Shown one piece after another: positions 1,869 through 6,894 of a stretch of 34,979 nt of DNA. The notes under the pieces are model-generated. The model had not been told where the DNA came from and made no database searches. It worked only from the letters and a program-made list of their open reading frames with translations. The stretch is from a virus, in IMG/VR virus record IMGVR_UViG_3300033571_003673, positions 1 through 34,979 of that record; one strand, given 5' to 3'. Position numbers and translations under genes: made by a program. How positions within the stretch are numbered: the stretch's first letter is position 1; each line of letters starts with the position of its first letter.

Positions 1869-3197
1869 TTAACCGACTAAACGAACACCCGCGAAAACAT
1901 CCAGGATCGTGCTACAAACGCGTTTCTCTGCAAATAGGTACACGAACCCAGGCGCAGTTTGATCGAAGCGTTTGATACTCATCTGATCGTTATCTGCGAT
2001 GGTTACGAAGCGTTCCCAATCTGCCAGGTACACCGGATTATTTCCGGAACCGGCAACTTCCATATATGGGTTAGGGATAACCCTATGCCCAAAAATATAG
2101 ATCACCGCGCCGCCATCATCATCACCCGCTTCCACAAACATTGGGGAACCGCCGGTTGAACCTTTCAACTTGCGAATTGCACCAATGGTAGTTGGATGCA
2201 TCATCCAACAAGTAGTTGGTTTGAACAAGTATTGGGCAGGCAATGCCGCCATCAAGTTTGCTAGATCGTCATAAGATACTGCGCTTGCGCTTGCCTGGGT
2301 AACTTCCAATACAGTATGAATACCGTTGGTAATTGCGCTACCGTTCGAACCGAACGCCGCCGCGCTAGTGCTACCAGGATAAGAATTCAAACCACGCAAG
2401 CCGCTAGTTGCACCGTATGCGGTGGTAGTGCTTCCTGCCTGGTCATTGTTAAGCATCATAGATTGGGCTTCAACCTGGGAAAACTCTAAGGCTAAATCCA
2501 TAACCAGGGTTTCTTCCAGGTTATCAATATCCGATAGGATCGCAGTACGAACCGGCAACACCGCGTTTACATCGCGGATCGGCAGTTGCCAAAATGAAGT
2601 TGCTTGATTTGGCGTACCTTCGTTGGTGTTCACACCATAACCCCAGGGGTTTGTTGCATCCTGAGAATTACCGGTTTTAACAACAAACGCCTGATCGGAA
2701 CCGGTAGTAACAATTTGGCGGGATACTTGGCGGAAAGGATTTGCAAGGCGCAAAGATGCAAACGCATCATCGTAAATTACACGCCCGCCAACATCTGAAC
2801 CGGAACCCGTAATCGCGCTTGCTTCGCGCAGATTAACTACGGATTGCCCTTCAACCAGGGCTTCTTTAATGCCTTGAAATATTGCGCTATTGTCCATTTT
2901 CCTTAATTCCTTTTCTGCCCATGTTTTTCCAGGATCACCACCCCACAATGCCCACGCGATTCGCCCCGCACTTGGGTACCCATCTTCGCCAGGCTTCCAA
3001 CCTTTGCCCTGCTTATCTACTTCGTGCCGGGCAAAATAACTAACCATTCGTGCAATTGTTGCGCGGGGTAAATCCTTGCCATTCATAATATCGCGCGCCC
3101 TTGCAACTCCCACTTCTGTACCGCCGCGCCCAAACTCTTTGCGCCATTCCAAACCCTTGCGGGCTTCTGCTTTCATGGCATCGGTTGGTTTAGGCAT
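1869..3197 (-). CDS. Second HK97-fold capsid protein, fused to an unrelated N-terminal domain; likely internal start at 2897
   Basis: 442 residues. Residues 1-100 form a compact charged domain (KPTDAMKAEARKGLEWRKEF at 3-22; ARHEVDKQGKGWKPGEDGYP at 56-75; WALWGGDPGKTWAEK at 82-96). I recall similar blocks in other uncultured phages but cannot name the family. Residues 101-442 are a clear paralogue of the capsid protein encoded just upstream: LREASAITGSGSDVGGR matches LKEASALTGSGAGVGGR, and FSQVEAQSMMLNNDQAGSTT matches FSQVEGASMIANDDQSGSTT. Met101 (ATG 2897-2895) is preceded by AAAGGAATTAAGGAAA, a doubled ribosome binding site inside the frame, so a 342-residue capsid form is probably also made. 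The full-length ATG at 3197 also has a site (AGGAAAAGATAA). This paralogue lacks the helical delta domain of the first capsid protein. It may be a minor or vertex subunit (inference). Confidence 0.85.
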   Translation of the reverse strand: MPKPTDAMKAEARKGLEWRKEFGRGGTEVGVARARDIMNGKDLPRATIARMVSYFARHEVDKQGKGWKPGEDGYPSAGRIAWALWGGDPGKTWAEKELRKMDNSAIFQGIKEALVEGQSVVNLREASAITGSGSDVGGRVIYDDAFASLRLANPFRQVSRQIVTTGSDQAFVVKTGNSQDATNPWGYGVNTNEGTPNQATSFWQLPIRDVNAVLPVRTAILSDIDNLEETLVMDLALEFSQVEAQSMMLNNDQAGSTTTAYGATSGLRGLNSYPGSTSAAAFGSNGSAITNGIHTVLEVTQASASAVSYDDLANLMAALPAQYLFKPTTCWMMHPTTIGAIRKLKGSTGGSPMFVEAGDDDGGAVIYIFGHRVIPNPYMEVAGSGNNPVYLADWERFVTIADNDQMSIKRFDQTAPGFVYLFAEKRVCSTILDVFAGVRLVG

Positions 3198-3222
3198 TTA
3201 TCTTTTCCTATTCATTTAAGAA

Positions 3223-3241
3223 GGGGGGCGCGAAGCCCCCC
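3223..3241 (-). terminator. GC-rich hairpin between the two capsid genes
   Basis: In the leftward RNA the sequence reads GGGGGGC, a five-base UUCGC loop, then GCCCCCC, followed by UUCUUAAAUG. The seven-base-pair all-GC stem is very stable, but the following U-run is broken, so it is either a weak terminator that lowers expression of the second capsid gene or a block that protects the 3' end of the first capsid message. It lies seven bases past the first capsid stop codon. Confidence 0.6.
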
Positions 3242-3247
3242 AACTCA

Positions 3248-4561
3248 TTACGCGCCCGTTGCAGTTGAACGGTAACGGATGATTGCGAATGGATCAACAA
3301 CGCTAGAACAAACGCGCTTCTCACCGTAGAAAGTGATGAAGCCAGGTGCAGTTTGATCGTAACGGCGAAGAACCATATTCAAGCGATCAACGATGGTATG
3401 CCCGCGAGTGAAATCACCGAAATACATTGGGTACTTAGAAGCGGTACCAGGTGAACCGGCGGCGATTGGGCTATCAACATAGTTGTTAACAACAACATCG
3501 TAACCCAACAACTTACCAACAATACCTTCGTAAACGCTTGGTGCCATGCGTTCAAATACGGGGGTGTTGTTATCGTCAACCATGCCACGAATAAAGGAAA
3601 GCATCAATGGCGAAACCATGAACTTGTTGTTGCTATTCCAATATTGTTGTGGAAGGCTATGCAAGAAGTTAATCAAGTCAGCGTAAACCATTTCACTTGT
3701 TGCGCCTGCGGCGTTGGTAGTGATTTGGTCATAAGTTGCAATGCTATGCAAACCTGCGCTTGCGCCTGTTCCGCTTGAACCAAATGCGGCAGTAGAAATT
3801 GTGCCGCCGGTGTAACTTGCATTTGCGCCTGGATAGTAATCCAAACCACGCAAACCGTTTGTGCCGCCGGTTGCAGTTGTAGTGCTTCCGGATTGGTCAT
3901 CGTTGGCGATCATAGATGCGCCTTCAACTTGCGAAAACTCAACCAACATATCATCAACCACATTGGCTTCCAAACCATCAATATCATCCAATGCCGCAGT
4001 ACGGATTGGGAATTGACAGTTAATATCTTGCAAAGTCAATTGCCAAATGTTAGTTGCTTCGGTAGTTGCAGAACCGTTGTTCTGAATGGTGTAACCCCAT
4101 GATGCACCTGCGTTACCGGTTTTAGCGCGGAACTGATAAGTTGCGCCATCGGTAGATACATTGCGGGAAAGTCCGCGCATTGGGTTAGCCAAACGCAAGG
4201 CATGGAATACGGGATCGTATGCAGTACGACCACCAACGCCCGCGCCCGAACCGGTCAATGCGGATGCTTCTTTTAGGTATGCATCGTACTGATCGGTTGA
4301 TTCGAACATCTTGATTTCTTTTTCAAGGCGATCACCTTTTGCAACGAACTCTTTAAGTTGCGATTTAACCATGCGGTTAACATCACCCTTAATAGTTTTT
4401 GCGGGTGCCTGGATAATTGCAGGGGCTTTAACTTCTGCAACCTTTGCTTCCAGGGCGGCGATCTTCTCGGCAACTTCTGCCTTTACTGCTTCCATTGATT
4501 CTGCAATCTTGGTTTCATTTTGTACCGCGATTGCATCCAATTTTTCAAATACTTTTTCCAT
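3248..4561 (-). CDS. Major capsid protein, HK97 fold with delta domain
   Basis: 437 residues, ATG at 4561 with AAAGGAAGCGAAA upstream. Residues 1 to about 85 are strongly helical and charged (MEKVFEKLDAIAVQNETKIA, then EAKVAEV and a Lys/Glu stretch), as expected of the HK97 delta domain that acts as internal scaffold and is removed by the prohead protease. The capsid core follows from about residue 97 (LKEASALTGSGAGVGGRTAY), with the E-loop region, the A-domain (VDDMLVEFSQVEGASMIAND) and the C-terminal 'RRYDQTAPGFITFYGEKRV' strand. It follows the protease gene directly, the normal HK97 order. The second capsid gene downstream is a paralogue without the delta domain. Confidence 0.93.
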   Translation of the reverse strand: MEKVFEKLDAIAVQNETKIAESMEAVKAEVAEKIAALEAKVAEVKAPAIIQAPAKTIKGDVNRMVKSQLKEFVAKGDRLEKEIKMFESTDQYDAYLKEASALTGSGAGVGGRTAYDPVFHALRLANPMRGLSRNVSTDGATYQFRAKTGNAGASWGYTIQNNGSATTEATNIWQLTLQDINCQFPIRTAALDDIDGLEANVVDDMLVEFSQVEGASMIANDDQSGSTTTATGGTNGLRGLDYYPGANASYTGGTISTAAFGSSGTGASAGLHSIATYDQITTNAAGATSEMVYADLINFLHSLPQQYWNSNNKFMVSPLMLSFIRGMVDDNNTPVFERMAPSVYEGIVGKLLGYDVVVNNYVDSPIAAGSPGTASKYPMYFGDFTRGHTIVDRLNMVLRRYDQTAPGFITFYGEKRVCSSVVDPFAIIRYRSTATGA

Positions 4562-4572
4562 TTTCGCTTCCT

Positions 4573-5367
4573 TTAAGAAATGCGTTTTTCGAGTGCCTTC
4601 TCAAGTTCGCGCAACTCAAACGCGCGTACAAGTTCGGCTTCCATATCCACCGCATCCGCTTCACACGAACTTGGGGTTTCCTGAACAACTGCCGGTTTCA
4701 CCTCACGCGAAACCAAAAGTTTTTTCAGAATTGAAGATGCGGTGGTTGCATCTTTTCGGGAAACGCCTGCCTCACGCAAGAGTTTTTCGATTACTCGCGG
4801 ATTCGGATTGCCTTCTGCATCAAATGCTTCGAGGGCTTGAATTTCCGCGTTGGGGTTATTTGGGTACATTACAACGGATACTTCGCGAAGTCCGCCTTTA
4901 GTAATTTGGAAATACGATTCATCATCGGGTTCATCTACCATATCGCCTTCGGCGTTAACCCAACACGCTTCTTCTGCGTAGGCACCAACGGATACGCCGC
5001 CGAACAAATCGGGGCTTTCTTTTAATACGGTGTATAGATCGTTACCGGCATTGGTATTTAAGAACAATTTACCTTTTGCGGTCATGCCTTCATCGTCAAA
5101 ATCAAACTCGTACCATTCACCAACCGGCATACCCATATCGTTATGGTTTAGGAACATAGGCAGGGGCTTACCGGCTTCGCGGAACTCCATTGCCCAATCC
5201 ATAAATCCTTCGGGTTGGTAATTAAATTTGCGACCATCTGCCCCTTCCCTTGCGCCCCAAGTGGTAACGCGGGCTTCCATCATTCCCGATGGAACTGCGG
5301 CTTCATTCGCGGATTCGTTAACCTTTAATTTTGCTTCGCAAACTAGGCTTAGATTCGAAAGTTTCAT
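4573..5367 (-). CDS. Prohead maturation protease (S78/U35 family)
   Basis: 264 residues. The likely catalytic residues are visible: His75 in MFLNHNDMGMPVG and Ser126 in FGGVSVGAYAEE, followed by the family strand GGLREVSVVMYPNNPNAEI (about 162-180). The enzyme cleaves the capsid delta domain during head maturation. After the protease core, residues about 190-264 form a charged, partly helical tail (FELRELEKALEKRIS at the end) that may act as scaffold or be self-cleaved. The start at 5367 has GGGGTGAT upstream. The gene sits between portal and capsid, and its start is overlapped by a short frame coupled to the portal stop. Confidence 0.92.
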   Translation of the reverse strand: MKLSNLSLVCEAKLKVNESANEAAVPSGMMEARVTTWGAREGADGRKFNYQPEGFMDWAMEFREAGKPLPMFLNHNDMGMPVGEWYEFDFDDEGMTAKGKLFLNTNAGNDLYTVLKESPDLFGGVSVGAYAEEACWVNAEGDMVDEPDDESYFQITKGGLREVSVVMYPNNPNAEIQALEAFDAEGNPNPRVIEKLLREAGVSRKDATTASSILKKLLVSREVKPAVVQETPSSCEADAVDMEAELVRAFELRELEKALEKRIS

Positions 5368-5497
5368 GTATCACCCCATGATGAATTGATTGGTTATCGT
5401 CTGTTATCTTGTGGGGCGTATTACCTTTACGCAGTTTAACATTGGGCTTCTTAATTTGGGAAGCCATTGTTAGCAATATTTTATTTAACAAATTCAT
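5318..5497 (-). CDS. Possible small basic protein between portal and protease
   Basis: A 59-residue frame starts at an ATG that overlaps the portal stop codon (TAATG at 5499-5495) and ends inside the protease gene, overlapping it by 50 bases. The product begins MNLLNKILLTMASQIKKPNV and is rich in Lys, His and Asn, with no membrane segment. It fills what would otherwise be a gap of about 130 bases in a tightly packed operon. It has no Shine-Dalgarno sequence of its own, so translation would depend on coupling to the portal gene. It resembles nothing I recognise and could be a chance frame. Confidence 0.4.
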   Translation of the reverse strand: MNLLNKILLTMASQIKKPNVKLRKGNTPHKITDDNQSIHHGVIHETFESKPSLRSKIKG

Positions 5498-6894
5498 TAT
5501 TTGCCAATATTTGCGCGAAGGGCTTGATTGCCACCACCGCCCCCGGTGTCCTGGGGGCTTGATCCTGGTACTGGTTCAAAATCGGTAGGTTCAATTTTAA
5601 TTACATCGCCGTTTTCAATTTTTGGCATATTCAAATATTCGCGGGCTTCGTTCACAGTCATAATACCCGCGTTGACCGCAGAATTAACAAAGTTGATTTG
5701 ATCGAGTACGGCACCCTTCAAGAATTCCTTAGTATCAAATCGAACAACCAGGTTCGGATACCCGCGCAACAAATGCTGATTTAATTTTTGTTCAACATTG
5801 ATAACCATTGGGTACATGGTTGTTTTATAGAATTCATCCAACTGCGTTTGAGTGTTGTTATATTTGGATTCGCCAATACCTAGCATTGCGGCAGGCACAC
5901 CAAACAAACCGCAAATCCGCTTCATGGTTTGCATTTTGAGTTGCGCGGCTTCGGCATCTTGAAGCGTTAACATATCAATCGGGGTATATTTCATGCCCTG
6001 ATCTAGCAACATTCCTTGCCCTGGTTTGCTTAAATCCTGGTTCCGGGAACCTAACATATTTGTCCAGGCTTCCTTCAAACGCCCGGCGATTTCCTTGTAT
6101 TTGGCATCCGGAATTACCTGGTCAGTTGTAAACATTCCCGAAGGCTTCGCGCCGTTTTGCATAATGTAATTGGCGTATAGATCAATATCCTGATCTAGTC
6201 CTACCAACTCCGCCGCAAGGATGCCTTTGTTAAAACCGGATGAACCTTGCCAGGCGGCTTCCTTGATATGCATTACCTGCCAATATTCCAGGGGTTGATC
6301 TTTTGAGAATCCATACGAAGGCGTAGATAGGCGATAGTACGGATACCGGGTTTCCGAAATGCCTACGGTAATAAGCGTGGAATCCAGGTTATACATTTCA
6401 AGCGGCGTTTGCATTTGATCTTTTTGCTTATCGCGCCACCATAGCGTAAACGATTCACCGGTTAAATCCTGCCACATACACCATTGATACCAAAACTCAT
6501 ACGAAGATTGGAAGTTGTTTGGTTGGTATAGCAGGTTCAATACTTGTTTGGCTTTTGCCTTATCGCGGGCGGTAGTCTTATCGGATTGCAACGCATCCAC
6601 GAAAGTACCATCATCTTGTTTTAGCATGATGCGCTTGGGCAACTGCGCCATCGCGCGGGCTTTAACTCCCACGCAAGCCATGATCGTACTGTTGCGGGTA
6701 AGCATTGATAGATCAACTTGCCGCCCCGCAGTTGTTGCGCTTGATGTTGTTACATATAAAAGTTGTTGGGCGATCTTGCCCTGTTGCGTGGTACCGTAAA
6801 TTACCTGGTTACCAAGTTGGGTTTGCCCAAGAACCGTATTAGATTCTTGTTGGGATTTACTATTTTTGCCTTTGAAAATGTCCAATATTCCCAT
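5497..6894 (-). CDS. Portal protein (HK97-like)
   Basis: 465 residues, ATG at 6894 with GGGGGTAAAAC upstream. Family features in order: variable N-terminus, the first core helix (NSTIMACVGVKARAMAQLPK, about 68-87), LLYQPNNFQSSYEFW, GESFTLWW, a wing region, VMHIKEAAWQGSSGFNKGIL, and the clip/crown-side helix ending in GLFGVPAAMLGIGESKYNN (about 349-367) and the TTMYPMVINVEQKLNQHLL helix. Twelve copies would form the DNA channel at one capsid vertex, dock the terminase and then the adaptor. The C-terminus is Gly/Pro-rich and flexible. The stop codon overlaps a possible small gene. Confidence 0.93.
   Translation of the reverse strand: MGILDIFKGKNSKSQQESNTVLGQTQLGNQVIYGTTQQGKIAQQLLYVTTSSATTAGRQVDLSMLTRNSTIMACVGVKARAMAQLPKRIMLKQDDGTFVDALQSDKTTARDKAKAKQVLNLLYQPNNFQSSYEFWYQWCMWQDLTGESFTLWWRDKQKDQMQTPLEMYNLDSTLITVGISETRYPYYRLSTPSYGFSKDQPLEYWQVMHIKEAAWQGSSGFNKGILAAELVGLDQDIDLYANYIMQNGAKPSGMFTTDQVIPDAKYKEIAGRLKEAWTNMLGSRNQDLSKPGQGMLLDQGMKYTPIDMLTLQDAEAAQLKMQTMKRICGLFGVPAAMLGIGESKYNNTQTQLDEFYKTTMYPMVINVEQKLNQHLLRGYPNLVVRFDTKEFLKGAVLDQINFVNSAVNAGIMTVNEAREYLNMPKIENGDVIKIEPTDFEPVPGSSPQDTGGGGGNQALRANIGK

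Follow-up and report, generated by a model that had tools for sequence, protein, structure and literature searches.

Tandem Capsid Genes in the Head Module

The window analyzed here is the whole stretch of 34,979 nt, positions 1 to 34,979 of IMG/VR virus record IMGVR_UViG_3300033571_003673, in which a capsid gene pair lies at 1869-4561. The head module is encoded on the minus strand in the order TerS, TerL, portal, S78 prohead protease, MCP1, MCP2 and head-tail adaptors, with the small terminase TerS assigned by its position in the module. The features considered below are:

5497..6894, minus strand: portal protein (Pfam Phage_portal, 3.1e-62)
4573..5367, minus strand: prohead protease, S78 family (Pfam Peptidase_S78, 3.5e-10)
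3248..4561, minus strand: MCP1, HK97-fold major capsid protein, 437 aa (Pfam Phage_capsid, 3.3e-31)
3215..3245, minus strand: GC-rich hairpin between the MCP1 stop and the MCP2 start (MFE -20.9, z -3.3)
1869..3197, minus strand: MCP2, predicted long form, a capsid paralogue with an N-terminal domain, 442 aa (Pfam Phage_capsid, 9.7e-22)
2904..3197, minus strand: phrog_2859 head-module domain, MCP2 residues 1-98 (phrog_2859, E 9e-24)
2898..2914, minus strand: putative internal ribosome-binding site (RBS) AAAAGGAATTAAGGAAA before Met101 (AAGGAA invariant in 33/33 fused relatives)
1869..2897, minus strand: MCP2, predicted short form from Met101, 342 aa (the matching codon is the start in unfused relatives)

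The initial annotation, made from the letters alone, described two tandem HK97-fold capsid genes that arose by duplication, the upstream one with a helical delta domain and the downstream one with a foreign N-terminal domain, and each of these points was borne out. Both products match Pfam Phage_capsid (109 bits for MCP1 and 78 bits for MCP2 against PF05065, with a curated cut-off of 24.2), and the phrog matches are phrog_10, 15928 and 617. By BLASTP, the proteins are 43% identical over 339 aa (E 2e-75), with the similarity confined to the capsid core, i.e., to residues 123-439 of MCP2 and 96-429 of MCP1. The N-terminus of MCP1 is a charged helical delta region of ~95 residues; in MCP2, a match to phrog_2859, a family with no relation to capsid proteins, covers residues 4-96.

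The AF2 model of MCP2 has the HK97 fold, aligning with the Rhodobacter GTA capsid 6tsu (Z 22.9, 257 aligned residues) and with HK97 prohead I (Z 18.0). An EAS-TGSG stretch is retained in MCP2 at the position where the delta region of MCP1 ends. The propeptide preceding TGSG is mostly about 27-31 residues long in MCP2 versus about 100-110 in MCP1. From TGSG to the C-terminal end, MCP1 measures 333-344 residues, with no inserts, at 80 measurable loci; the median for MCP2 is 312 residues. MCP2 is longer by 70-80 residues at L082:2852-4102, L084:4989-6254, L085 and L304. Reading of the sequences showed that the extra residues form a Gly/Thr/Ser-rich insert in the E-loop region in L082 and L084; for L085 and L304, an insert at this place is deduced from MCP2 length. 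A Pfam search with the L082 and L084 proteins, insert included, gave no match beyond Phage_capsid.

The Capsid Gene Pair Is Ancient and Universal in the Surveyed Family

IMG/VR was scanned using MCP1, MCP2 and two fused relatives as queries, which retrieved 296 loci that were reduced to 225 distinct pairs, the window and phage P19250A included. Both capsid genes are present in 212 of the 225, MCP2 alone in 10, and in the remaining 3 MCP1 is too near a contig end. An MCP1 orthologue was found at every locus where sequence was available, and no case of MCP1 with room downstream and without MCP2 was found among the 225 distinct IMG/VR pairs. When 74 MCP2 and 4 MCP1 cores were placed in one tree, the proteins separated into two clades (SH-aLRT 100), and the duplication must thus be one old event. 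We conclude from these sequences that it dates far back and is shared by all of the surveyed family. Two irregular loci were noted: in L056, the gap between MCP1 and the MCP2 core is 682 bases where about 50 are usual, indicating some insertion there, and at L063:258-1669 the MCP1 gene is broken into two frames that overlap, through either a frameshift or a sequencing error, with MCP2 intact.

The family comprises freshwater and marine phages with ~35-39 kb genomes, of which one member, the Methylophilaceae phage P19250A (KX815270), has been cultured. P19250A shares the gene order and the tandem pair with the window; its MCP2 orthologue (352 aa, 57% identity), annotated as hypothetical, differs in that it lacks the N-terminal domain and starts at the Met101 position. 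One study places P19250A, which infects freshwater LD28, and the marine OM43 phage Venkman in one genus-level cluster (PMC8163748). The second capsid gene is not mentioned in the accessible portions of the literature on P19250A and an OM43 phage, and a search for papers on paired phage capsid paralogues or phrog_2859 returned no description of this family.

Of 158 distinct sequences, 157 have a hairpin after MCP1, with stems that vary; after MCP2, one is present in 29 of 147. At least four consecutive T residues are found at the expected place after MCP1 in 106 of the 158 sequences. The hairpin of the window has no good T-run and was not flagged by a terminator scan, and its reading as an intrinsic terminator was rejected. 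It may lower the supply of MCP2 or protect MCP1 mRNA.

The N-Terminal Domain of MCP2

Structure prediction of the MCP2 N-terminus yielded a separate helical domain of five helices (AF2, mean pLDDT 97), the last of which merges into the propeptide helix (residues 87-116) in the MCP2 model. BFVD models of phage proteins match the domain with a TM of 0.96. With the domain alone as query, no meaningful PDB match was obtained by sequence (best E 0.68) or by structure (Foldseek best E 3.3; VIA-align Z at most 4.9), so no function was taken from its fold; no solved structure of a phrog_2859 domain was found.

To see where the domain occurs, we inspected the best-matching 80 viral ORFs out of at least 594 stretches, a biased sample. 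In these 80, overlapping counts of companion regions were 47 for S78 protease, 24 for Phage_capsid, 5 for ClpP-type protease and 8 for portal models; ten of the ORFs were inspected individually. Protease-capsid polyproteins of Synechococcus phages S-CBS1 and S-CBS3 and of Roseobacter phages CRP-811 and CRP-822 carry the domain N-terminally. Like MCP2 of the window, these proteins combine an N-terminal phrog_2859 domain with a capsid; unlike it, they have a protease region between the two, and no tandem capsid copy is annotated in these phages. A literature search for protease-capsid single polypeptides gave nothing. Since the hosts of the domain are prohead-interior or portal proteins, their identity suggests an interior, assembly-stage role for it rather than decoration.

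Several other arrangements were seen. Single ORFs of 922-975 residues at L143:2435-5200 and L196:1036-3960 join a portal, the phrog_2859 domain and a Mu-F-like region. At L152:3269-6487 and L181:3266-5896, the domain lies between a protease-like region and a Hva1_TUDOR domain, and the odd multi-domain protein of L152 additionally has a ferritin/Dps-like domain. Stand-alone domain-like proteins are also encoded in bacterial chromosomes, so phrog_2859 is not only a head domain. Proteins of this kind, about 110-140 aa long, occur in genome contigs L217-L293 from Mesorhizobium, Cyanobium, Henriciella and others, with at least four loci in Cyanobium assembly Cruz-8D1; the genes adjoining them provided no functional lead.

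The domain is fused to MCP2 in 33 of the 225 distinct pairs (about 15% of the surveyed family). The fused genes fall into three separate clades: that of the window, the L026/L028/L133/L364 group and the L032/L034/L037/L089 group. On the MCP2 core tree, the fused/unfused state changed at least five times. The MCP2 cores of L034 (fused) and L390 (unfused) are nearly identical, and swaps of the N-terminal module must therefore be recent. All three fused groups have the motif KE-x-x-KM in common, so the junction may have moved together with the domain, in which case the three clades are not fully independent. No free-standing domain genes were found beside unfused pairs in the surveyed loci.

A Probable Internal Start Codon at the Fusion Junction

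Met101 is encoded by an ATG at 2897-2895 with AAAAGGAATTAAGGAAA directly upstream. The initial annotation had proposed an internal in-frame start here, behind a doubled RBS. The start withstood comparison with relatives; the doubling did so in part, for two AAGGA motifs do precede the codon, but only the distal one is well placed and invariant. This motif, AAGGAA at -15 to -10, is unchanged in 33/33 fused relatives, whereas the proximal copy, AAGGA at -7 to -3, lies too near the ATG and varies among them. We therefore read the region as containing one well-placed site. The calculated anti-SD duplex energy of Met101 (-5.6 kcal/mol) equals that of the MCP1 start, and codon 1 of MCP2 is weaker (-4.2 kcal/mol). 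Met101 ranks only 29th by this measure among the 381 start-like codons in frame, and the energy is therefore no proof when taken by itself.

Conservation at the nucleotide level was examined next. At the junction, each of the 33 fused genes has an ATG and, at positions -15 to -10, a Lys-Glu pair written AAG GAA; of the 134 Lys-Glu pairs elsewhere in these genes, 27 use AAG. The highest synonymous conservation of the whole gene in the clade of the window is that of codons -10 to +17 relative to Met101 (12/19 identical vs 6.3 expected, p 0.002). In the second fused clade, broad synonymous windows were not significant, and the six codons upstream of the ATG were borderline (p 0.05). What is found at the junction, a conserved in-frame internal RBS with its start codon, is as expected of a nested in-frame gene.

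Unfused MCP2 genes, that of P19250A included, start at the Met101-equivalent codon behind a GGA-type RBS. Two near relatives of the window, L024 and L025, have a start region closely similar to its own (AAGGAAT...ATGGACAA) and an in-frame stop immediately upstream of that ATG or one codon away from it, which leaves the short product as the only one possible there. Judged by these sequences, the short form starting at Met101 is the ancestral one, and it remains the most frequent among MCP2 genes. In the window's clade both the domain (dN/dS 0.042) and the MCP2 core (dN/dS 0.066) are under strong purifying selection, from which it follows that the long frame is translated too. Thus, the fused MCP2 gene probably gives both a long and a short shell subunit, the latter by internal initiation.

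Discussion

In phage T4, cleavage by the protease shortens gp23 by 65 residues and gp24, which was probably derived from gp23 by duplication, by only 10 (PMC9958956). Like gp23 and gp24, MCP1 and MCP2 are HK97-fold paralogues, with a short propeptide in the second. Unlike that pair, the window capsids have their best sequence and structure matches among GTA, HK97 and cf-PICI capsids, and gp24 is not among the PDB matches listed for them. We know of no domain fusion of the MCP2 kind in T4 gp24. In the phage lambda C/Nu3 head gene, an in-frame internal start gives rise to a second, shorter product, as we propose for MCP2; the lambda products are a protease and a scaffold, unlike the capsid subunit considered here.

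The short propeptide of MCP2, the inserts confined to it and the hairpin between the genes suggest that the two capsid proteins have unequal roles. Our preferred reading, which we hold with a probability of about 50%, is that MCP2 is a minor vertex-type subunit made mainly in the short form, along with a long form that carries a head domain into the prohead. MCP1 would be the bulk shell protein, and MCP2, an old diverged paralogue, would co-assemble with it as a minor specialized subunit, most likely at the pentameric vertices, a location raised by the initial annotation and favored by analogy with T4 gp24, the vertex protein beside the major capsid protein gp23. The hairpin after MCP1 would be expected to reduce the supply of MCP2. 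In fused phages, the MCP2 gene would have been extended upstream in frame by the 98-residue domain, with the original RBS and start kept inside. The short product would then be the standard, predominant subunit, and the domain of the long product would lie inside the prohead and probably be cut off with the propeptide at maturation; we infer both the stoichiometry of MCP2 and the cleavage of its propeptide and domain.

Other readings assign MCP2 a different place in the head. It could be an equal partner of MCP1 or one located in hexamers, the shell then being a mixed lattice of two HK97-fold components with no vertex role for MCP2, as both proteins are complete, conserved HK97 folds, and two-component shells of this fold exist (e.g., Family 2B encapsulin entries 9bje and 9bix). 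We consider this unlikely, since a short propeptide and tolerance of inserts are found only in MCP2 and a hairpin separates the genes. At the other extreme, MCP2 could act in assembly only, in size control or as a scaffold-like factor, and be absent from the mature virion. Many hosts of the domain are indeed removed or processed during maturation; yet the mature HK97 core of MCP2 is complete and subject to purifying selection, which makes such a role very improbable.

The long form raises questions of its own. Fused phages might make only the fusion, with Met101 and its RBS as left-overs and the domain as an obligatory replacement of the delta region. The domain does occupy the place of that region, has its own start (-4.2 kcal/mol), is strongly conserved and leads protease-capsid polyproteins elsewhere. 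However, the ATG and AAGGAA are invariant in 33/33 fused genes, synonymous conservation peaks at the junction, most family members manage without the domain and nearly identical cores occur with and without it (L034 and L390), and we regard the idea as improbable. Display of the domain on the head exterior, the decoration envisaged by the initial annotation, appears more doubtful still. That MCP2 can carry extra domains is indicated by the 70-80-residue E-loop insert in L082, L084, L085 and probably L304, but the N-terminal place is that of the delta region, which is inside proheads, and the other hosts of phrog_2859 are proteases and portal C-termini.

Returning to the vertex-type subunit with two starts, a wider and more tentative scheme is possible, in which a family of tailed phages with small genomes split its shell into hexamer and vertex subunits by gene duplication and the mobile phrog_2859 domain, passing among proteases, portals and vertex capsid subunits, serves as a prohead address or assembly tag, with the dual start diluting the tagged subunits among untagged ones. 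Unequal propeptides in a pair of HK97-fold paralogues are a trait known above all from the much larger T4-type phages. The presence of the pair in every surveyed member of a widespread family with ~35-39 kb genomes offers a simple system for testing vertex specialization, and the recurrence of phrog_2859 on proteins that define the prohead interior turns its function into a testable question of head assembly.
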